The position numbers and the translations under genes were made by a program. From positions 806,001 through 870,000 of the forward strand of contig NZ_CP013422.1 in the NCBI RefSeq assembly GCF_001718695.1: a stretch of 64,000 nt of DNA, given 5' to 3'. The notes beneath the pieces were generated by a model. The model was not told the origin of the DNA, ran no database searches, and saw only the letters and a list, made by a program, of their open reading frames with translations. Shown in pieces: positions 487-13,147 of the stretch (position 1 is its first letter; the number at the start of each line of letters is the position of its first letter). This DNA comes from Burkholderia ubonensis (lineage in GTDB: Bacteria > Pseudomonadota > Gammaproteobacteria > Burkholderiales > Burkholderiaceae).

Positions 487-1551
487 TCACCGCGTCAACG
501 CCGTAAACCCATCCAGCAACCGCTCGACGTCAGCCGCCTCGATCGCGCCCATCGTCGAGATGCGGAACAGTTCCTTCGACAGCCCGCCTTGCCCCGCGTA
601 GATCACGAAGCCGCGCGCCTTCAGCCCGTCGTGGAGCTGCTCGTACGTCACGCCCTGCGGCAGGCGGTACGCGCGCAGCACGACCGACGACGCGCCCTCG
701 GGCAGCACGAGCGGCATCCCGCGCGCGGCGAGGCCTGCTTGCGCCTGGTCGGCGAGCGCCTTGTAGCGCGCGTGGCGCGCGCGCCAGCCGCCGGCTTCGT
801 CGAATTCGCGCAGCGCCTCGACGAGCGCGTAGTACGCGTGCACCGACGGCGTGAACGGCGTGTTGCGCTGGTCCTGCAGCTTCGCGAGGCGGCCGAGGTC
901 GAGGTAGTACGTGCGGCTCGCGGCCTGCGCGAGCGCGCTGCGGCGCACGATCACGAACGCCGCGCCCGGCACGCCGTGCAGGCACTTGTTCGCGGTCGCC
1001 GCCACTGCGTCGATGTCGCCGCCCGCGAAATCGATCGCCTCCGCGCCGAAGCTGCTGACGCCGTCGACGAGCAGCCTCACGCCGCGCGCACGGCACACGT
1101 CGGCGATCGCGCCGAGATCGTTCAGTCGGCCGGTCGTCGTTTCGTGATGGATCACCGCGACGTGCGAGAAGCCGCCCGCGTCGAGCCGCGCGGCGATCTG
1201 CGCGAGGTCGGGCGCCTGCATCCACTCATGCTTGAGCACTTCATGCGCAATCGCGTACTGCGTCGCGATCTGCGCGATCCGCTCGCCGTACACGCCGTTC
1301 TCGATCACGAGCAGCTTGCCGCCCTGCGGGACGAGCGCCGCGACCATGCTTTCGACGGCGGCGGTGCCCGAGCCCGTCATCAGCACGGCGGCCCATTCGG
1401 CCGGATCGAGGCCGTACGCGGCGACGAGCCGCGCGCGCGCCTCGTCCTGCAGGTCGAAGAACTCGCTTTCGCGATGGCACAGGTCGGGTTGCAGCAGGCT
1501 GCGGCGCACGCGTTCGGACAGCGTCACCGGGCCGGGGTTCAGCAGCAGCAT
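487..1551 (-). CDS. phnW: 2-aminoethylphosphonate aminotransferase
   Basis: A 354-residue class V (fold type I) PLP aminotransferase interconverting 2-aminoethylphosphonate (AEP) plus pyruvate with phosphonoacetaldehyde plus alanine. It opens with the family signature LLLNPGPVTLSERV; Asp163 (LLVDGVSSFG) should contact the PLP ring nitrogen and Lys189 (ATANKCLHG) forms the Schiff base. Length matches PhnW. In catabolic clusters this enzyme removes nitrogen from AEP, but here it is the last gene of an operon with PEP mutase and phosphonopyruvate decarboxylase and no phosphonatase, so the biosynthetic direction is inferred. The ATG at 1551 shares its A with the upstream stop codon (TGATG), implying translational coupling. 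A TTG one codon earlier is a less likely start. Confidence 0.92.
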   Translation of the reverse strand: MLLLNPGPVTLSERVRRSLLQPDLCHRESEFFDLQDEARARLVAAYGLDPAEWAAVLMTGSGTAAVESMVAALVPQGGKLLVIENGVYGERIAQIATQYAIAHEVLKHEWMQAPDLAQIAARLDAGGFSHVAVIHHETTTGRLNDLGAIADVCRARGVRLLVDGVSSFGAEAIDFAGGDIDAVAATANKCLHGVPGAAFVIVRRSALAQAASRTYYLDLGRLAKLQDQRNTPFTPSVHAYYALVEALREFDEAGGWRARHARYKALADQAQAGLAARGMPLVLPEGASSVVLRAYRLPQGVTYEQLHDGLKARGFVIYAGQGGLSKELFRISTMGAIEAADVERLLDGFTALTR

Positions 1552-2732
1552 CAATGGGCTCCTTCAGCGTGGGCTTCGGCCTGCGCGGCGCCGATGTGGC
1601 GCATCAGGCGGGTCTTGACTTCGACCGGCGTGACGGTCGGGCGGGGCAGCCCGTCGGGCACGCCGGTGCGGATCGCGATGCGCACGAAGCGCGCGCCGTC
1701 CGCTTGCGCGGCCAGCGCCGCGTCGAGCACATCGAGCGACTCGCCTTCGACCGCCGACGCATAGCCGCACGCGGCGGCGACGCCGGCGAACGACACGTGC
1801 TGCGACACGGTGGCCTGGCCGCCCGTCGATTCGTGCGCGCCGTTGTCGAGCAGCACGTGCGTGAGGTTCGCGGGGCCGTAGGCGCCGAGCGTCGCGAACG
1901 CGCCCATGCGCATCAGCGCGGCGCCGTCGCCGTCGACCGCGACGACCTTCAGGTCGGGCCGCGCGAGCGCGAGGCCCAGCGCAAGCGGCGTCACGCAGCC
2001 CATCGAGCCGACCATGTACAACTGGTTCGGGCGATCGTCGAGCGCATACAGCTCGCGGCCGCAGAAGCCGGTCGATGCGAGCACGACGGTCGAGTCGACC
2101 GGCGTGTGCGCGATCACGCGCCGCAGCGCGTCGTGGCGGGTCGGCCGCGCGTCGGCCGATTCAACTCGCGCCGCCGACTGCGCGGCGACGTGCGCGCGCG
2201 GCGTCGCCGCCGGATTGGCCTTCAGCTCATACGGCGCGACGCTGCCTTTCTGCATCACGAGCGCGTACGGGCGGCCGGTCGCGTCCATGTGCGCGATCGC
2301 GCGGTCGAGCGCCGGGCCGACCGCGTCGGGATCGGTCGGGAAGGTTTCCCACGGGATCTCCATCGTGTCGAGCATCGCGGGCGTGATCGGCCCCATCAGC
2401 GCGTGCTGCGGCTCGTCGGGCACGCCGGGCTGGCCGCGCCACGTGACGATCAGGAGCTGCGGCAGGCGGAACGTCCACGTGAGCGACGTGAGCGGGCTCA
2501 CCGCGTTGCCGAGCCCCGAGTTCTGCATCATCGCGATCCCGCGCTTGCCGCCCAGCGTCGCGCCCGCGATCAGCGCGACCGCGTCGCCTTCGTTCGCGGC
2601 CGACACGTAGTGCAGCGTCGGGTCCTGCAGCACGTAGTTGATGAACGGCGTCAGGTACGAGCAGGGCACGCCCGCGTACCAGTCGAAGCCGCGCGCGCGG
2701 GCGGCCTCGACGAACTGGGCCGCTTCGATCAT
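1551..2732 (-). CDS. aepY: Phosphonopyruvate decarboxylase
   Basis: A 393-residue thiamine-diphosphate enzyme that decarboxylates phosphonopyruvate to phosphonoacetaldehyde, making the thermodynamically unfavourable PEP mutase step irreversible. The N-terminal half has the pyrimidine-binding domain with the conserved Glu at about residue 48 (AANEGDAVA); the C-terminal half has the diphosphate/Mg site GDG followed some 25 residues later by [10 protein letters not shown]. Typical length for Ppd. The ATG overlaps the stop of the PEP mutase gene by four bases (ATGA), so the two proteins are made in tandem. It cannot be confused with sulfopyruvate decarboxylase given the PEP mutase immediately upstream. 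Confidence 0.93.
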
Positions 2733-4417
2733 TGCGCGCCTCCGTTGCCGGCGCCCGGTTCGGACAGCGGCGTCTGGCCGTGCGCGAAGTCGCCCGCGCG
2801 GCGGAAATCTTCGAGATCGTTGACGCCGCGCCAATGGCCGTGCACGTACTGCACCTCGATCTTCTCGCCGGCGGCGATCAGTTCGTTGAGGAGCGTGGGG
2901 ATGTCGAGCGTGTCGAAATCGGCGCGCGCCTGCAGCGTCGCGAGCATCGCCTTCAAACGTTCGACGCCTGCGCCTCGCACGTTCAGCAGGCCGATCCAGC
3001 GGCCGTGCGGCGTGCCTTCGGCCACATCGCTCGACACGCGCTGCAGATAGGTCTTCTGGCCGAACAGGCCGCGGTCGTCGGCAGCGGAGCAGAGCGCGAA
3101 GTCGCGCACGCTCTGGTTCGTCGGCTGCGTCAGCGACGAATCGACGACGACGCTGAACTCGGCCTCGCTTTCCGCGAGGTCGCGCAGGATGTAGCTGCGG
3201 AACAGCAGGTCGCCGTACGAGATCACGGTGTCGCCGGTCAGGCGCTCGGCCGCGCACGCGAGCGACGCGAGCTCGCCCGTCTGCGCATGGCGCTCGTTGA
3301 CGACGAGCTTGATGCCCGACGTGTCGATCGCGTCGGCGCGGTAGCCGCCGACCACGGTGATGTCGTTCACGCCGTGCTTCTTGAAGCCGTCGACGAGCCA
3401 GCGCAGCAGCGGCTTGCCGGCGACCGGCAGCATCACCTTCGGCTTGTCTTCGGTGACGGCTTCCAGCCCCTTGCCGCGGCTCGCGGCGAGCACGATCGCG
3501 GCGTTCGACGCGCGCGACGACGACGACAGGTAGATGCGCTCGGCCGCCGAATACTCGTCGGCGTCCTGCAGGCGGAAGATCTCGTTGACCGACGCGACGC
3601 GGTCTTCGACGTTGATCAGCGTTTCGTTCTCGTGGATCTCGCGCGCAACGGCCTGCATCGCGGACGCCGATGCGCGGATCAGGTGGTTCGCCCAGATCAC
3701 GGTGCTGATGCCGGCCTGGCGGAACACGTCGGTCGGCGTGCTGTAGTACTTGGTCGGCACGATCACGAGCGGCGCCTTGCCGCTCCATTCACGCGCGAAC
3801 TGCAGGATCTCGTCCGGGCGCGACAGCTTGCTGTGGATCAGGATCGCGTCCGCGCCGGCTTCCGCATACGCGTTCGCGCGGCGCAGCGCCTCGTCCATCC
3901 CCCAGCCGGCGATCAGCGCCTCGACGCGCGCGACGATCGAGAAGTCCGGGTCGCTCTGCGAATCCTTGCCGGCCTTGATCTTGCCGCAGAACTCGTCGAT
4001 CTCGGCGAGCGGCTGGCGCTCGCCGTCGATGAAGCTGTTGGTCTTCGGGAACTGCTTGTCCTCGATGCACACGCCCGCGATGCCGCGCTGCTCGAGCTTC
4101 TTCACGAGGCGGCGCACGTTGTTGAAGTTGCCGTAGCCGGTGTCGCCGTCGAGCAGGATCGGCAGGTCGCTCGCGTCGGCCATGAACTCGAGCACGTCGA
4201 CGACCTGGGTCCAGCTCGCCTCGTTGTTGTCGCGCACGCCGAACTGCGCGGAGATCGCGAGGCCGGACGCCCAGATCCCCTTGAAGCCCGCCTCGCGGAC
4301 GATCCGCGCGGACAGGCCGTTGTGCGCTTCCATCAGGAATTCGAGGTCGCTGCTGACGAGCATGCGGCGCAGGCGCGCGCTGCGCGATTCGGTGAAGTTG
4401 GGTTCGCGTGCGTTCAT
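2729..4417 (-). CDS. aepX: PEP mutase fused to a nucleotidyltransferase domain
   Basis: A 562-residue two-domain protein. Residues 1 to about 300 are phosphoenolpyruvate mutase, isomerising PEP to 3-phosphonopyruvate and forming the C-P bond; the mutase-specific gating-loop signature [11 protein letters not shown] is at residues 119-129, which separates it from isocitrate lyase and methylisocitrate lyase homologues. Residues about 304-562 form an NTP-transferase domain. Its glycine-rich signature reads [17 protein letters not shown] at 311-327, so the Gly and Arg usual in the G-x-G-x-R motif are Ser and Gly here. Whether this domain is active, and on AEP or another phosphonate, is unknown; a separate nucleotidyltransferase is encoded just upstream. 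Four-base overlaps at both ends. Confidence 0.92.
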
Positions 4418-5181
4418 CGTGCAGCTCCGGCGGTGGTGCGTTGAATCAGGGGGAGGATGTCCTGCGTGGCGCGCGCGACATCGTTCGGGAAGTCGATCTC
4501 GATCCACGGCGCGCCCGTCACGTCGGCGACGTCGAACGAATGGCCGCCTTCGAGCAGCAGGTCGCGCACGGCTTCCTCGTGCGGCATGTTCGCGCGGCCG
4601 CTGTCGACGTAGCCGGCGACGATCGCCGCGAGGCGGCGCGCGGTGCCTTCGGTGAAGCGGAAGAAGCCGACCGATTCGCCGATCGTGTCGTAGTCGAGGT
4701 CGACCGCGAGCTGCTTGCGCAGCTCGACGGGCACGCCGTTCTTCAGGCACAGCTTGACGGGCTCGTCGCCCGCCTCGAAATCGCGGTCGATCAGCAGGCG
4801 GTCGACCGGCTGGTCGGGGTTGGCCACGAGCGCGTGCAGGATGCTTTCGTCGTACAGCACGTCGGCGTCCATCAGCAGCACGTCGCCGCCGCGCGTCATC
4901 GCGTCGGCGACGGTATGCACGGTCAGCACGCTGCCGAGATCGTAGCGGTCGTTCAGCACGATTTCCGCGCGGCGGCCGAGGCGCTTCAGTTCTTCCTCGA
5001 CCTTGCCGGACTGGAAGCCCAGCGCCAGCACGATCTCGTCGACGCCGGCCGCGTCGAGCACGCGCAGGTGGCGCTCGAGCAGCGAGGCGTCGTCGAAGCG
5101 CAGCAGACACTTCGGGAATTGCGCTTCGGGAGGTTGCTGCAGGCGCAAGCCGAGGCCTGCCGCAAGAATGATGGCTCGCAT
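4414..5181 (-). CDS. NTP transferase, probable AEP cytidylyltransferase (PntC-like)
   Basis: A 255-residue single-domain nucleotidyltransferase. It starts with an intact glycine-rich signature, [10 protein letters not shown], followed by the FPKCLL lysine segment and a metal-binding [10 protein letters not shown] at about residues 106-115. Enzymes of this kind in phosphonate operons (PntC, LicC-like) convert AEP plus CTP to CMP-AEP. With a CDP-alcohol phosphatidyltransferase in the same operon, CMP-AEP is the expected activated head group. I chose the ATG at 5181 because the A-x-I-L-A-A-G strand must begin at the N-terminus; an in-frame start at 5196 would add five residues. It overlaps the PEP mutase gene by ATGA. 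Substrate is inferred. Confidence 0.8.
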
Positions 5182-5223
5182 GTGTTCTCCAACCAAAAAA
5201 TCGACCGATCGATGCTTGACCGA

Positions 5224-6225
5224 TCAGTCGGCGAGAGGCTGCGGCGCACGGCGCCGCTGCCAGTTTCTTTCACTGAAATGCAGATAGAGCAGGCCGGGCA
5301 GGCCGAGCGCGAGTTCGCGCGCGCGCTTCGCGAGCGACAGCGCGAGCGCCGCGTCGGGCGGCAGGCCGACGAGCGGCGCGAGCAGCAGGTAGCCGCCTTC
5401 CTGCGCGCCGAGCGAGCCGGGAATCGCGAAGGCGGCGCCGCGGATCGCCTGGCCGACGCTTTCGAGCAGCAGCGCGTCGAGCCAGCTCACCGGATGCCCG
5501 AGGAAATGCAGCGCGAGCCACACTTCCGCGGTGCCGACGATCCAGCCGACGAGACTCAGCGCGAAGGTCGACGCCACCTTGCGGCGGTCGCGGTACAGCG
5601 TGCCGACCGCCGCGTCGATCGCGTCCGCGCGGGTCGCGAGCGACGACCAGTCGCGCGGGCCGAGCAGCTTCGACGCGACGCGCAGGCCGCGGCCGAACAG
5701 CCCGCGCCGCTGCGCGGCATAGAACAGCACCGCGCAGCCGCCGAGCACGCCGGTCGCGATCAGCGCCGGCGTGCGCAGGTGCGCGGCCGATTCGTGCGTC
5801 GCGACCATGCTGAACGCGGCGATGCCGAGCAGCGCGAACGCCATTTGTGCAAGCGCCTGCATCGTCGTGCTGACCGTGATCGCCGCGGCGGCATTCGCCA
5901 TCCGGGTGCCGCGCTGCGCGAGGTGGCGCACCATCAGCACGGGGCCGCCGATCTGCCCGGCGGGCAGCAGGCTGTTGACCGATTCGCCGACCCAGCGCGC
6001 GCGCAGCGCATTGCCGAGCTCGGCGCCGGGCTCGCCCTTGCGGAACATCACCGAGATCGCCGCCGCGTCGATCACGAGCGGCACGACGTGGAACGCCGCG
6101 ACGAGCGCGAGCCCCCAGCCGGCCGCGAGGAACGTCGACGCGACCGCGCCGACACCCTGCCACGCGAGCAGGGCCACGAACAGGGCCGTCCCGAGGGACA
6201 GCAGGATCATGCCGGCGCGTGTCAT
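5224..6225 (-). CDS. Flippase-like integral membrane protein (LPG-synthase TM / UPF0104 family)
   Basis: A 333-residue polytopic protein with about eight hydrophobic segments, beginning [20 protein letters not shown]. It carries the family's conserved core ([18 protein letters not shown] near residue 90, [19 protein letters not shown] near residue 255). The family covers the membrane half of MprF and the hopanoid-associated HpnL; members are thought to move or attach modified lipids, but no soluble transferase domain is present here. In this operon a role in flipping or exporting the phosphonolipid is a reasonable inference. Start overlaps the oxygenase stop codon (ATGA); 42 bases separate it from the next gene, the only real gap in the operon. 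A distant relative is encoded at 52369-53376. Confidence 0.8.
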
Positions 6226-7031
6226 GAGCCCGTCGCGCGTCGCGTCGCCAACTGCTTGAACACCTGGCGGAAACCGAAATACGCGATCGCGTCCTTCATG
6301 TTCGAGATGAAACGCTTCCACGGCCGCATGCCGGGGTCGGTCACGTATTCGAACGTGAGCGACACGCGCATTTCGTTCTGGCCGAGCGGCGTGACGCGAT
6401 GGCGCAGCTTGTCGCCGTCGAACAGCACGATGCCGCCGTCGGCGATCTGCACCGAGCCCGGTTCGTCGGGCACCGCCGGATTGCGCGTATGCAGCTCGTA
6501 GTCGAGCCGGCACGACGAGTCGTCGATCACGCCGATCAGCAGCGTGTAGCGGCGGCCGTCGTAGTACGACGTGTCGTAGTGCCAGCCGATGTGGTCGCCC
6601 GGCTTCGTGTAGTAATACAGCGCGTACGCGTGCGGATCGTCGTCCGGCGACAGCAGCAGCGTGTCGCCGGTGAGCTTCTCGAGGAGGCCGATCAGCGCCT
6701 TCGAGCGGTACAGCTCGGCGATGTACGGCGCCTTCGCGTCGATCGTGTGGCGGCTCACGCTGCCGCCCTGCTTGTGGCCGGGCAGGTAATTGCGGTTGAT
6801 GTCGGCCGTGAGCGCGCGCGCGGCGTCGGCGAGCTTCGCGTGCGCGTCGGGCGGCAGGAACGTGTCGAGATACAGGAACGACCCCTGGCGCGTGTAGTCG
6901 TCGCGCAGGCGGCCGACGTCGAGCCGGCCGACGCAGTCGGCCACGGTGCGGTCCGCGGTGGCCGCCGCTGCGCGCGCAGGCGCGGGGCGTGCCGGGTTCA
7001 GCACGGAGTCGTCGCGTGTGCTGGGAGTCAT
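6222..7031 (-). CDS. 2-oxoglutarate/Fe(II)-dependent oxygenase (HalD/BesD-related)
   Basis: A 269-residue double-stranded beta-helix oxygenase. The iron triad is visible as His151-x-Asp153 (GWHYDTSYYDG) and distal His211 (DKLRHRV), with Arg222 (EMRVSLTF) placed to bind the 2-oxoglutarate carboxylate. The sequence resembles the group that includes amino-acid halogenases such as BesD, but those have Gly in place of the Asp; the Asp here predicts hydroxylation. Four-base overlaps with both neighbours make it an integral part of the phosphonate operon. The likely substrate is the AEP head group, free, CMP-linked or in lipid, giving 1-hydroxy-2-aminoethylphosphonate; hydroxylation of the lipid acyl chain is the main alternative. 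Substrate is inference. Confidence 0.8.
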   Translation of the reverse strand: MTPSTRDDSVLNPARPAPARAAAATADRTVADCVGRLDVGRLRDDYTRQGSFLYLDTFLPPDAHAKLADAARALTADINRNYLPGHKQGGSVSRHTIDAKAPYIAELYRSKALIGLLEKLTGDTLLLSPDDDPHAYALYYYTKPGDHIGWHYDTSYYDGRRYTLLIGVIDDSSCRLDYELHTRNPAVPDEPGSVQIADGGIVLFDGDKLRHRVTPLGQNEMRVSLTFEYVTDPGMRPWKRFISNMKDAIAYFGFRQVFKQLATRRATGS

Positions 7032-7708
7032 TTGCTTGCCTGGATTTCGGTTGGGTTCTGCGGCAGGGCGCCGCGACGAACGATGCGCCACCAGTCGATC
7101 ACGACCCAGGCGGCGAACAGCGGCGCGCCGATCGACGCCGCCAGCAGGAACGGTTCGACGCCGTTCGTGAGCGTCACGAGCGGCAGCAGGTAGAGCACGT
7201 CCTCGGTCTCGAAGCCGCCGACGAACGCCTGCTTGGTGCCGGCCTTGCCGGCGAACGATTCGATCCGCATCCGCAGGTAGAAGATCAGCGCGACCGCCGC
7301 GCCGGCCGCCGCGCCGAGCAGCACCGGCGACGCGGCCATCTGGCCGCCCTGGGCGATGATGCCGACGCCCATGCTGACGAACAGCGCGATCGTGACGAGC
7401 GCGTCCGCCGCGAGGTCGTAGAAATGGCCGATCTTGCTCGACTTGCCGCTGATGCGGGCGAGTTCGCCGTCCGTGTGGTCGACGAAGTTCGACAGCACGA
7501 TCAGGAATGCGCCGGCGTTGCTCCAGCCGTAGCCGCCCTGGGCAAGGCACCACGCGCCGGCAAGGCCGATCAGCAGGCGGACGGTGGTGAGGTGATTCGG
7601 GGTGACGGGCGTGTCGACGAGCGGCCGGACGAGGGCGCGCGCGAGCCGCGCATCCCACGTGCGGGGTAGCGGTGGCTCGGAACGTTTGGCGGTTTTTCTT
7701 TGGTCCAT
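7028..7708 (-). CDS. CDP-alcohol phosphatidyltransferase (predicted phosphonolipid synthase)
   Basis: A 226-residue membrane enzyme with the complete family motif D77-x2-D80-G81-x2-A84-R85-x8-G94-x3-D98-x3-D102 and about six hydrophobic segments. Family members transfer a phospho-alcohol from a CDP/CMP donor to a hydroxyl acceptor, releasing CMP. With AEP made and probably CMP-activated by its neighbours, this enzyme is predicted to join AEP to diacylglycerol or a sphingoid lipid, like an ethanolamine/choline phosphotransferase with a phosphonate donor. It is the first gene of the operon. Start set at the ATG at 7708; an in-frame start at 7756 would add 16 unconserved residues. No strong ribosome-binding site is seen for either. 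Confidence 0.87.
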   Translation of the reverse strand: MDQRKTAKRSEPPLPRTWDARLARALVRPLVDTPVTPNHLTTVRLLIGLAGAWCLAQGGYGWSNAGAFLIVLSNFVDHTDGELARISGKSSKIGHFYDLAADALVTIALFVSMGVGIIAQGGQMAASPVLLGAAAGAAVALIFYLRMRIESFAGKAGTKQAFVGGFETEDVLYLLPLVTLTNGVEPFLLAASIGAPLFAAWVVIDWWRIVRRGALPQNPTEIQASK

Positions 7709-8353: not shown

Positions 8354-9868
8354 ATGTCTTCATCCCGCATCCTCGCTCCCGCCCTGCGCTCGCTCGTCCG
8401 CACCGCCGCCGAAGCCGCCGCCCTGATCCGTCCCGGCATGACCGTCGCCATGAGCGGCTTCACCGGCTCGGGCTACCCGAAGGCCGTGCCGGCCGCGCTC
8501 GCCGCGCACATCGAGGCGGCGCACGCGCGGGGCGAGGCATTCCGCATCAACGTGCTGACCGGCGCATCGACCGCGCCGGAGCTCGACGGCGCGCTCGCCC
8601 GGACGAACGGCATCTCGATGCGCCTGCCGTACCAGTCCGACCCGACGCTGCGCGACAAGATCAATGCCGGCGAAGTCGACTACCAGGACGTCCACCTGAG
8701 CCACGTCGCGCAGTACGCATGGTTCGGGCTGTACGGCGATCTCGACGTCGCGATCGTCGAGGTCGCGGGCATCCGCGAGGACGGGCTGCTGATTCCGTCC
8801 GCGTCGGTCGGCAACAACAAGACCTGGCTCGACCGCGCGAAGCACGTGATCCTCGAGGTCAACGCGCGCCAGCCGCTCGGCCTCGACGGGATGCACGACA
8901 TCTATTACGGCACCGCGCTGCCGCCGCACCGCAAGCCGATCCCGCTGACGAAGAGCGACGACCGCATCGGCGAGCCGTACCTGCGCTGCCCGGCCGAGAA
9001 GATCGTCGCGATCGTCGAGACCGACGCGGCGGACCGCAGCAACGCGTTCTCCGCGCCGGACGAGACGTCGAAGCAGATCGCGGCGCAGCTGATCGATTTC
9101 CTGCGCCACGAAGTGAAGCGCGGCCGTCTGCCGGAGAACCTGCTGCCGCTGCAGTCGGGCGTCGGCAACATCACGAACGCGGTGCTCGCGGAACTGAGCA
9201 CGGCCGGATTCTCGAATCTCACCGCGTACACCGAGGTGATCCAGGACGGCATGCTCGACCTGCTCGCGGACGGCACGCTCGGCTTCGCGTCGGCCACCGC
9301 GCTGTCGCTGAGCCCGGACGCGGTCAAGCGCTTCGCCGACGAGATCGCGACGTTCCGCGAGAAGATCCTGCTGCGCCCGCAGGAGATCAGCAACCATCCG
9401 GAGCTCGTGCGCCGCCTCGGCTGCATCGCGATGAACGGGATGATCGAGGCCGACATCTACGGCAACGTGAACTCGACGCACGTGATGGGCACGAAGATCC
9501 AGAACGGCATCGGCGGCTCGGGCGACTTCGCGCGCAACGGCTACCTGTCGTGCTTCATGTCGGCGAGCACCGCGAAGGGCGGCGCGATCTCGCGGATCGT
9601 GCCGATGGCGAGCCACGTCGACCATACCGAGCACGACGTCGCCGTGGTCGTCACCGAGCAGGGCCTCGCGGACCTGCGCGGGCTGTCGCCGAAGCAGCGC
9701 GCGCGCAAGATCATCTCGACCTGCGCGCACCCGGACTTCCGGCCGATGCTCGACGACTACTTCGAGCGCGCGTGCCGCGAGAGCTTCGGCAAGCAGACGC
9801 CGCATCTGCTCGGCGAGGCGCTGTCGTGGCACGAGCGGTTCGTGCGGACCGGGTCGATGAAGGTCTGA
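8354..9868 (+). CDS. Succinate CoA-transferase (acetyl-CoA hydrolase/transferase family)
   Basis: A 504-residue class I CoA-transferase, full length for the YgfH/AarC/Ach1 group, moving CoA between succinate and acetate or propionate. The catalytic glutamate is Glu294 in AYTEVIQDGMLDLL, the same number as in acetic-acid-bacterium AarC; the conserved GSGGSGDFARN-type stretch near residue 390 (GIGGSGDFARNGYL) builds the CoA site. The open frame extends to 8027, but homology begins at the ATG at 8354. It acts in the cytosol on acetate or propionate overflow. The choice between acetyl-CoA hydrolase naming and succinate:propionate/acetate CoA-transferase cannot be made from sequence, although the hydrolase activity reported for this family is generally weak. 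Confidence 0.88.
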   Translation: MSSSRILAPALRSLVRTAAEAAALIRPGMTVAMSGFTGSGYPKAVPAALAAHIEAAHARGEAFRINVLTGASTAPELDGALARTNGISMRLPYQSDPTLRDKINAGEVDYQDVHLSHVAQYAWFGLYGDLDVAIVEVAGIREDGLLIPSASVGNNKTWLDRAKHVILEVNARQPLGLDGMHDIYYGTALPPHRKPIPLTKSDDRIGEPYLRCPAEKIVAIVETDAADRSNAFSAPDETSKQIAAQLIDFLRHEVKRGRLPENLLPLQSGVGNITNAVLAELSTAGFSNLTAYTEVIQDGMLDLLADGTLGFASATALSLSPDAVKRFADEIATFREKILLRPQEISNHPELVRRLGCIAMNGMIEADIYGNVNSTHVMGTKIQNGIGGSGDFARNGYLSCFMSASTAKGGAISRIVPMASHVDHTEHDVAVVVTEQGLADLRGLSPKQRARKIISTCAHPDFRPMLDDYFERACRESFGKQTPHLLGEALSWHERFVRTGSMKV

Positions 9869-10031
9869 GCCTGACCGGCGCGGAGTGGGGCGTGCGCCGC
9901 GCGTGCGCCCCCGCCGCGCCGTTAATTTGTCGCTGCCGCGCTGCATGCGCGGCGGGCGGCTCCAATCACGCCGCAACCCCCGCGGCGGCACGCACGCGTC
10001 GCGCTTGTATCGGAACGGTCGAGCGGCTATC

Positions 10032-10060
10032 TTGCAGCTTCAAGTTCACTTGAGGTCAAG
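10032..10060. promoter_or_regulatory. SoxR-like MerR-family operator upstream of the MerR gene
   Basis: The dyad at 10039-10056 (CTTCAAGTTCACTTGAGG) differs at two positions from the SoxR consensus CCTCAAGTTAACTTGAGG. On the minus strand it sits between TTGACC and CAAGAT with the 19-base spacing typical of MerR-activated promoters, pointing left toward the end of the CoA-transferase gene. The plus-strand equivalent (TTGCAG, 19 bases, CAAGCA) is weaker. The dyad ends 5 bases before the regulator's ATG. Confidence 0.55.
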
Positions 10061-10061
10061 C

Positions 10062-10487
10062 ATGGGCCGTCTGGATATTGCCGACGTCGCGCGTCATGCG
10101 GGCTTGCCCGCGTCGACGCTGCGCTACTACGAGGAAAAGGGCTTGATCGTGCCGAGCGGACGGCATGGGCTGCGGCGTCAGTACGACGCGTCGGTGCTGG
10201 AGCGTCTCGCATTGATCGCGCTCGGCCGCGAGGCCGGGTTCTCGCTCGATGACATGCTGGCGATGTTCGGCGCGGACGGCCGACCGGCGATCGACCGCGC
10301 GACGCTCGAGCGCAAGGCCGACGAGCTCGATCGCGCGATCCGCCGGCTCAGCGCGGTGCGCGACGGCCTGCGGCACGCGGCGGCGTGTCCGGCGCCGAGC
10401 CATCTCGAATGTCCGTCGTTTCGCAAGCTGCTGCGCATCGCCGCGCATCGCGCCCCGGCGCGCCGGACGAAACCGGATAGCCCTTGA
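10062..10487 (+). CDS. MerR-family transcriptional regulator
   Basis: A 141-residue regulator: winged helix at residues 1-70 (DIADVARHAGLPASTLRYYEEKGL), a dimerisation coiled coil at about 80-115, and a short tail with two cysteines in CPAPSHLECPSFRKLL. SoxR has four closely spaced cysteines holding a [2Fe-2S] cluster; only two are present here, so it is SoxR-like in DNA binding (see its operator) but not a SoxR by ligand. The open frame extends upstream to 9885, but the MerR fold starts at the ATG at 10062. No adjacent target gene is obvious; the operator just upstream suggests autoregulation. Confidence 0.82.
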   Translation: MGRLDIADVARHAGLPASTLRYYEEKGLIVPSGRHGLRRQYDASVLERLALIALGREAGFSLDDMLAMFGADGRPAIDRATLERKADELDRAIRRLSAVRDGLRHAAACPAPSHLECPSFRKLLRIAAHRAPARRTKPDSP

Positions 10488-10521
10488 CGAGCCAGAACGG
10501 GCTAGAACGCCGTACGGCCCG

Positions 10522-11400
10522 TCATCCCGCGTGATACACGCGGCATTCCATCTCGCGTCCTCGCACGACCCGCTTGCCGGCGAGCGCGCCGAGCGTCCCG
10601 GTGACGACGGTGCGCAACTGTTCGCGCTGCGTTGCATCGTAGAAATAGAGCGCGACCCAATCGGCGGTCGCGGACGGCTCCTGCGCGCGGGCAGGGCACG
10701 CGGCCAGGGCGGTGAAATGCCAGCCGCCCTTCGTCATGTGCATCACGGGCGGCGACACGCTGACGTCCGCGTTCAGGCGGCGCGGCACGAGGGTCGGCAG
10801 CATGCCGGCGGCCGCCTTGTTGCGGTACAGGCGATCGACGTACAGCAGCAGCTCGACCGGCGGCTCGGTGCCGAGGCCGGCGTCGCGCGCATGGCCTTGC
10901 CAGCGTCGGCGGCGGCTCAGCACCTCGTCGAGCGCCGCGCGAATGCCCGCCGCGCGGCGCGGGCCGACGCCCGCGATCGCTTCGAGCTGGCCGCTGCGCG
11001 CGGCGCGCTCCAGCTCCTCGAGCGTATCGATCTGCAACTGGTCGTGAATGCGCATCGCGAGTTCGCGGCCGATGCCGGGCACGGCCTCGAACGCGGACAC
11101 GCGCTCGGCGTCGCCGCGCAACCGGTCGAGCAGACGCCAGCGGCCGCTCACCAGCAGCTCGGCGATCGCCTGCGCGACGCCTGCGCCGACTGCCGGCAGC
11201 GCGCCCAGCGCATCCACGCCGCCCGCGTCGAACCGCGCGCGCAGCGCTTCGTCGAGCGATTCGATCGTATCGGCGGACGCGCGGTAGGCGGCCACCCGAT
11301 ACGGATTCGCTCCCTGGTCGGCAAGCAACTGCGCGGCCTCGCGCAGATGGTCGGCGATCTGCCGGTTTTCCTCGTCGGTGTGGCTGATGGTCGTTTCCAT
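10522..11400 (-). CDS. Helix-hairpin-helix protein related to the N-terminus of family X DNA polymerases
   Basis: A 292-residue protein. Residues 1-70 resemble the 8-kDa domain of polymerase beta/PolX (NPYRVAAYRASADTIESL), followed by helix-hairpin-helix repeats (LPAVGAGVAQAIAELL, VPGIGRELAMRIHDQL, IAGVGPRRAAGIRAAL). The nucleotidyl-transfer palm with its aspartates and the PHP nuclease domain are absent; the last 120 residues are an unrelated conserved domain ending CRVYHAG. It probably binds structured or gapped DNA, but no enzymatic activity can be predicted. Start chosen at the ATG at 11400 because the polar 22-residue extension from 11466 is not domain sequence. Convergent with the MerR gene. 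Confidence 0.72.
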   Translation of the reverse strand: METTISHTDEENRQIADHLREAAQLLADQGANPYRVAAYRASADTIESLDEALRARFDAGGVDALGALPAVGAGVAQAIAELLVSGRWRLLDRLRGDAERVSAFEAVPGIGRELAMRIHDQLQIDTLEELERAARSGQLEAIAGVGPRRAAGIRAALDEVLSRRRRWQGHARDAGLGTEPPVELLLYVDRLYRNKAAAGMLPTLVPRRLNADVSVSPPVMHMTKGGWHFTALAACPARAQEPSATADWVALYFYDATQREQLRTVVTGTLGALAGKRVVRGREMECRVYHAG

Positions 11401-11590
11401 GGCGCGGGACCGGGGCAAGCGCAAACGGGATGGACGCGGCGCGCAATGCGCCGCAGCACGCTTCATTTCAGCACATTGTCGCGGCCCGTGACGGATGGAA
11501 ATTGACGCGCATCAACGGCGAACGTTGCGGGCGTGCGGCAGCCCACACGCGCGCGTTCGCACCGGTGTGCGGCGCGTCGCGCGTGGCCGC

Positions 11591-13147
<1,557 letters not shown>

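Follow-up and report, generated by a model that had tools for sequence, protein, structure and literature searches.

The genome of Burkholderia ubonensis analysed here (6.68 Mb in three contigs) contains, within a stretch of 64,000 nucleotides (the window; G000:C3:806001-870000), a minus-strand operon of seven genes that runs from position 7708 of the window down to position 487 and whose products are predicted to make 2-aminoethylphosphonate (AEP) and to place it on a membrane lipid. Gene sets of this kind have been noted before. The legend to Fig. 7 of a 2018 study of a lichen Nostoc lists genes for a CDP-alcohol phosphatidyltransferase, OG-Fe(II) and NTPT together with pepM, ppd, AEPT and hpnL, a homologous Burkholderia cluster is shown with it, and the cluster is treated as one for phosphonolipid synthesis by a route adapted from that of Yu et al. 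2013 (PMC5987646). The gene list is the same as that of the operon in the window, and the account, in the parts of the paper available to us, stops at phosphonate lipids with no link to a hopanoid cluster. The first-pass annotation of this stretch had considered such a route undescribed for this kind of bacterium, a claim that fails because the gene set is already in print (PMC5987646). In addition, one phosphonate cluster has been recorded in each of four B. ubonensis strains (PMC5472815); the literature examined, in part, held no report of an isolated product of the operon.

Four other known systems resemble the operon in part. A 2021 study of Roseomonas observed that the hopene cyclase gene is often closely linked to that of phosphoenolpyruvate (PEP) mutase and raised the possibility of an undiscovered terpene-phosphonate (PMC8776678). 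These hybrid clusters of squalene-hopene cyclase (SHC) and PEP mutase have the mutase, the decarboxylase and the aminotransferase in common with the operon, whereas the phosphotransferase, HpnL, the second nucleotidyltransferase and the Burkholderia operon are not named in the sections seen of that paper, and are connected with them here. In the Pnt pathway the activation of AEP with cytidine monophosphate (CMP) is established, some 33% of Ppm enzymes carry a fused PF12804 domain, and the steps past activation are called unknown in the part consulted (PMC6697681). The operon would have CMP activation in common with this pathway but encodes two nucleotidyltransferase domains, and the one joined to the mutase deviates from the consensus in print. 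The nearest solved relatives of the phosphotransferase by sequence are AF2299 (4o6m) and an inositol-1-phosphate cytidylyltransferase/phosphotransferase (4mnd), although the operon itself has no inositol synthase. Finally, hpnI, hpnJ and hpnK provide hopanoids with a cyclitol-ether head group. As in the operon, an HpnL-family protein is encoded beside these head-group enzymes, and the function of hpnL is described as not established (PMC12583986); the operon differs in that its head group would be a phosphonate and its transferase a CDP-alcohol phosphotransferase. Within the parts seen of the open-licence literature searched, no connection among the Nostoc cluster, the Roseomonas linkage and Pnt activation was found.

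What appears to be new is the link to hopanoids, the sterol-like lipids of bacteria. We lean slightly towards reading the operon as one that would supply a hopanoid with an AEP head group. The chances are about even that Burkholderiaceae and Acetobacteraceae make phosphonohopanoids, that is, hopanoid polyols carrying AEP or hydroxylated AEP, by way of the phosphotransferase together with HpnL, in which case HpnL would be the shared partner of interchangeable head-group modules: the cyclitol ether (hpnIJK), aminoethylphosphonate and perhaps phosphoinositol. If so, a class of hopanoids with a C-P bond has been overlooked, the predicted phosphonolipid cluster gains an acceptor, the HpnL family gains a testable role, and there would be a zwitterionic triterpenoid to seek in lipidomes and as an environmental source of phosphonate.

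Operon structure and the AEP pathway

All seven genes begin with ATG, end with TGA and contain no internal stop, and five of the six junctions overlap by one to four bases (in order from 7708 to 487: -4, -4, +42, -4, -4 and -1 bases), the sole gap being the 42 bases between the HpnL-family gene and the gene that follows it; the overlapping operon reported at first reading is thereby confirmed. Families were assigned by profile matches to NCBIfam, with its curated cut-offs, and to Pfam. The last three genes encode a PEP mutase fused to a nucleotidyltransferase domain (4417-2729, 562 amino acids; TIGR02320 PEP_mutase, 410 bits, cut-off 320), a phosphonopyruvate decarboxylase (Ppd; 2732-1551, 393 amino acids; TIGR03297 Ppyr-DeCO2ase, 479 bits, cut-off 313) and an AEP aminotransferase (AEPT; 1551-487, 354 amino acids; TIGR03301 PhnW-AepZ, 399 bits, cut-off 361). 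With all three above their curated cut-offs, as the first-pass annotation had proposed for this route, a sequence of steps in which PEP would be converted to phosphonopyruvate, then to phosphonoacetaldehyde and finally to AEP is supported by family assignment. The PEP mutase signature EDKx5NS (PMC6697681) is present in the protein of the window and in 92 of 92 relatives' matches, a tally that, like the other motif counts given below for relatives (120, 113 and 100, for example), includes some genomes twice; the best solved match of the mutase is 1m1b (E 5.9e-131).

The four genes at the head of the operon encode the CDP-alcohol phosphotransferase (PT; 7708-7028, 226 amino acids; Pfam CDP-OH_P_transf, 55.5 bits, cut-off 22), a 2-oxoglutarate (2OG)-Fe(II) oxygenase of the HalD/BesD fold (7031-6222, 269 amino acids; Pfam HalD, 46.9 bits, cut-off 26), the HpnL-family membrane protein (LPG_synthase_TM, flippase-like; 6225-5224, 333 amino acids; TIGR03476, 373 bits, cut-off 196) and a free-standing nucleotidyltransferase, NT2, with a GxGxR...PK signature (5181-4414, 255 amino acids; NTP_transf_3, 50 bits, cut-off 27). 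Family matches and gene coordinates bear out the earlier statement that nucleotidyltransferases, a CDP-alcohol phosphotransferase and a flippase-like protein share the operon, with the amendment that of the two nucleotidyltransferase domains, which reach 50-51 bits for NTP_transf_3, one belongs to the mutase fusion and one stands alone. The PT motif D-x2-DG-x2-AR-x8-G-x3-D-x3-D, also claimed at the outset, is complete in the window (DHTDGELARISGKSSKIGHFYDLAAD) and was found in all 120 relatives' matches examined. The closest named relative of PT is that of Burkholderia ubonensis LMG 20358, at 100% identity, with records very near the window possibly excluded.

Taken together, the families and the operon structure give good support to a pathway that equips a membrane lipid with an AEP head group. 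From the enzyme families we infer that AEP would be activated to CMP-AEP, with NT2 proposed as the main cytidylyltransferase, and that PT would transfer the AEP group, to a hydroxyl on the hopanoid side chain if the acceptor is as proposed, giving a phosphonohopanoid. The HpnL-family protein would then move or present this product across the inner membrane, HpnN would carry it outward, and the 2OG oxygenase would hydroxylate the AEP moiety. AEP modification is known from the capsule of Bacteroides fragilis (PMC6697681), and AEP could likewise be destined for a surface glycan or lipid A, with HpnL handling a lipid-linked intermediate; this is improbable, as no match to a glycosyltransferase or LicD family was obtained for any of the seven proteins (Pfam, E 0.01) and PT is the only transferase among them.

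Linkage to hopanoid genes in Burkholderiaceae

Counts across genomes were made by tblastn with known proteins. Among 150 Burkholderiaceae genomes an SHC match is present in all 79 that have PT, compared with 98 overall (97 over the cut-off). Likewise, in a sample of 398 genomes of Pseudomonadota, SHC matches occur in 15 of 15 PT genomes versus 57 overall (47 over the cut-off), the 15 being made up of five Burkholderiaceae, the genomes G435 and G485, in both of which PEP mutase is over the cut-off, and eight of a distant type, f39. In G435 the two PT contigs offered no usable context, and its PEP mutase lies on another contig.

Physical linkage is seen in a subset of these genomes. In 16 of the 79 genomes the starts of SHC and PT are 18-39 kb apart. 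These genomes represent four of the 11 PT-bearing genera (g11, 10 of 11 genomes; g16, three of three; g8, two of four; g7, the only one), and no such case occurs in the remaining seven, the window's own genus with its 15 genomes included. In three genomes that were read throughout (G140, G046 and G016), homologues of HpnN, HpnH, HpnA and HpnG are located beside SHC or in the interval that separates it from AEPT, while in a fourth (G006) AEPT is followed by HpnN, with SHC and HpnG farther along. The record of Mycetohabitans endofungorum reads hpnD-shc...hpnA-hpnH-ispH...MMPL transporter...dxs-AEPT-aepY-aepX-NT2-HpnL-oxygenase-PT, with other genes between, NT2 and HpnL carrying other names in the annotated record. 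In the genome of the window a second HpnL-family gene adjoins hpnJ and hpnK, a neighbourhood in line with the hpnIJKL grouping of B. cenocepacia (PMC5472815). This second gene (L039:8466-9402; G000:C1:1403465-1404401) was matched as two overlapping pieces in different frames.

Linkage in Acetobacterales and the f39 variant

The 299 Acetobacterales genomes include 24 with PT and 23 with a PEP mutase over the cut-off, all 23 of the latter being PT genomes; another 23 have PEP_mutase matches under the cut-off, among them the remaining PT genome, G769. Loci were read in 21 of the 24. In thirteen, NT2, the PEP mutase fusion, Ppd, HpnL, AEPT and PT are clustered together, and in the DNA fetched for 11 of these SHC is found 3.3-7.4 kb from PT with HpnH and HpnG alongside (HpnN in seven, HpnA in five). 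Of the other two complete clusters, L254 has HpnN and L255 has no hopanoid gene in the 11 kb to the contig end. Six further loci take the form HpnN-PT-HpnL, with PEP mutase elsewhere in all six; AEPT adjoins in five, the exception being a short contig. In one of the six, L185, HpnN (TIGR03480), HpnL and AEPT exceed their cut-offs, with HpnN falling below the stricter model NF052374. The last two are L256, a short contig bearing PT, HpnL and NT2, and L267, which has PT and a partial HpnN in a genome whose PEP mutase is on another contig. In Roseomonas marmotae the order, on mixed strands, is hpnA, C, D, E, shc, hpnH, ispH, PT, AEPT, HpnL, aepY, aepX, NT2.

The f39 genomes present a different arrangement, with an inositol-3-phosphate synthase adjoining PT in seven of the eight. 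At L190 a fusion of nucleotidyltransferase and PT, the inositol-3-phosphate synthase and a second nucleotidyltransferase (9641-12870) stand beside SHC-HpnG-HpnN-HpnA-HpnL, and at L188 (1318-5872) the same inositol and nucleotidyltransferase-PT genes stand beside HpnL and part of HpnN; the other six contigs have no hopanoid neighbours. This arrangement hints at a phosphoinositol hopanoid. In a tree of 50 rows, two of which have long branches and are of unsure placement, the AEP-associated PTs, together with that of G435 and one more distant sequence from G485, split from the f39 PTs with support of 100/100. An inositol-phosphate lipid was rejected as the product of the operon itself: PT and NT2 match inositol-type models only below the cut-off (NT2 far under it for the inositol cytidylyltransferase model), no inositol synthase is among the seven genes, and the f39 transferases, which are of the inositol type, group in a clade apart (100/100).

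Conservation of the gene set and its two halves

The two halves of the operon, PT-oxygenase-HpnL-NT2 and the AEP genes, are retained together to a large extent. Among the 150 Burkholderiaceae genomes, 77 have both PT and the PEP mutase fusion, two have PT alone, none has the fusion alone and 71 have neither. In neither exception does a PEP mutase score above the cut-off; G065 keeps PT-oxygenase-HpnL-NT2, and G143 is decayed (L205:8166-9543), with partial PT, oxygenase and NT2, no HpnL match and no fusion. The set is present in all 15 of the same-genus genomes sampled. Among 80 named loci retrieved through their similarity to PT, 52 hold the whole set contiguously, 26, mostly named Paraburkholderia, have only the PT-oxygenase-HpnL-NT2 half, and two are cut by a contig end; contiguity in 52 of 80 means that the operon is not a chance assembly. 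Organisms named among 120 of 3651 proteins listed are Burkholderia, Paraburkholderia, Cupriavidus and Trinickia, and the 17 plasmid records retrieved in looking for the Nostoc cluster include no cyanobacterial one.

The Paraburkholderia-type genus g20 illustrates how the halves came apart. PT is present in 12 of its genomes, the fusion being elsewhere in 10 and missing in two, and the second half in the 10 split genomes retains the fusion and Ppd in every case and AEPT in nine. The genome G085 (4.1 Mb; L199:11544-13107) shows only fragments of AEPT and an interrupted Ppd match. In two of the 10, C-terminal remnants of NT2 lie directly upstream of PEP mutase (L197:9451-9684 and L198:11080-11235), corresponding to residues 216-249 and 198-249, respectively, of 255 and 62% identical; the one in L197 is preceded by a 19-residue N-terminal piece. 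These remnants are evidently the scar of the operon split.

One might argue that the PT-oxygenase-HpnL-NT2 half works on its own to supply some other head group (phosphoethanolamine, for instance), that the AEP half feeds something else and that the two share only a common ancestral locus, as the halves are apart in 26 of the 80 named loci and in 10 sampled genomes, G065 has the first without the second, and two distinct nucleotidyltransferases are encoded. Their co-retention after the split, with the fusion never found without PT in 150 genomes and PT without the fusion only twice, once in a decayed locus, makes this quite improbable. Still further from expectation is a diffusible phosphonate natural product of the antibiotic type, for although Burkholderia make flavophos via another PEP mutase cluster (PMC12871164), the operon includes a membrane transferase and HpnL and is universal among the sampled genomes of its genus; we consider it very unlikely.

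Hopanoid or diacylglycerol as acceptor

Genomic linkage makes a hopanoid the best reading of the acceptor. The main competing scenario is that PT transfers AEP from CMP-AEP to diacylglycerol, yielding a phosphono analogue of phosphatidylethanolamine, and that the hopanoid linkage stems from co-regulation or a common membrane domain and does not mean that the two end up in one molecule. It fits the published interpretation of the Nostoc/Burkholderia cluster, in a paper whose abbreviations include DAG, AAG and HAEP (PMC5987646), as well as the CDP-alcohol phosphotransferase fold of PT, and SHC linkage is absent in the window's own genus. It leaves unexplained, however, why hopanoid clusters contain or adjoin the set in Acetobacteraceae and in four genera of Burkholderiaceae, and why there is an HpnN-PT-HpnL unit, and we therefore judge it rather unlikely. 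Were diacylglycerol the acceptor, the operon would still provide the enzymes to build a bacterial phosphonolipid. The initial proposal that AEP is delivered to a lipid agrees with the enzyme families as far as head-group transfer is concerned, whereas the acceptor, so far assumed to be a glycerolipid, needs revision, since the comparative evidence points to hopanoids.

A number of observations weigh against a hopanoid acceptor. The genome of the window does have SHC (TIGR01507, 769 bits; G000:C3:15176-17071), but about 0.8 Mb from the operon (PT at C3:813031, SHC at C3:15176), and no genome among the 15 sampled from its genus has SHC within 45 kb of PT. Overall, SHC linkage is missing from 63 of the 79 PT genomes, with the two genes on different contigs in 44 and farther apart on the same contig in 19. 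The counts also span related genomes and were not corrected for phylogeny, and the Fisher co-occurrence values overstate the evidence. Nineteen Burkholderiaceae genomes have an SHC match and no PT, none of them with the fusion, and those SHC-negative Burkholderiaceae that were listed (20 of 52) have genome sizes of 0.2-4.8 Mb. In the phylum sample, eight of the 15 PT genomes are of the f39 type and lack PEP mutase, and three of these (G308, G332 and G408) have SHC matches only under the cut-off. G065 maintains its half of the operon with no true PEP mutase, the Burkholderia oxygenase was not found at the 23 Acetobacterales and G435 loci searched, and no report of a phosphonohopanoid was found in the open-licence literature searched.

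The AEP cytidylyltransferase

The presence of two nucleotidyltransferase domains raises the question of which one activates AEP. The consensus of PntC is GXG(T/S)RX4-8PK, and 6pd1 is the PntC-AEPT of T. denticola (PMC6697681). NT2 has 6pd1 as its best solved match, over query residues 2-246 (245 residues, 42 bits), and reads GLGLR, nine residues, PK, with Leu in place of T/S and a spacing one above the consensus; in the printed alignment it has Asp at the position of T. denticola PntC Glu104. Its G-x-G-x-R...PK is kept in 112 of 113 relatives' matches. The fused domain (2732-3532) instead has LicC (1jyk) as its best solved match, over 119 residues at 56 bits, with PntC at 23 bits, and its signature loop, SRGKG...PK, is without the consensus arginine; none of 92 relatives' matches fits the PntC consensus, and PK is kept in all 92. 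Because its best solved match is PntC and G-x-G-x-R...PK is kept, set against no fit in 92 for the fused domain, NT2 is proposed as the AEP cytidylyltransferase. In several Acetobacterales loci the loop of the fused domain reads SGGEL or similar.

The 2OG oxygenase

H151, D153, H211 and R222 of the oxygenase are invariant across 22 aligned sequences (HYD...H...R), and HYDTS occurs in 100 of 100 relatives' matches. The best PDB matches of a structure model (mean pLDDT 77.5) are HalB, BesD and HalD, with a lysine-bound BesD-like hydroxylase, 7jsd, at rank 17. In the BesD/HalD halogenases the metal-binding Asp is replaced by Gly or Ala; a halogenase was considered and is ruled out by HYD, where HxG would be expected. 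The HYD...H...R arrangement therefore makes the site hydroxylase-type rather than halogenase-type as judged from its residues, and the likeness of the model to amino-acid halogenases and to a lysine-bound hydroxylase would suit a small amine such as AEP. A different, PhnY-like oxygenase adjoins NT2 at four of 23 loci, namely three complete clusters and the AEP locus of G485; one example (L257:16634-17425) is a PhyH oxygenase directly after NT2 that scores 157 bits where the cut-off for the methylphosphonate hydroxylase PhnY is 500. Together, the HalD-fold match and the PhnY-like oxygenase suggest hydroxylated AEP.

Other features of the window

A search of the same genome with the PEP_mutase domain gave five places, the operon copy among them, and a search of the PHROGs phage families gave a single weak match, to NT2. 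Next after the operon lies a gene with a family match to ArsR-type regulators (422-30).

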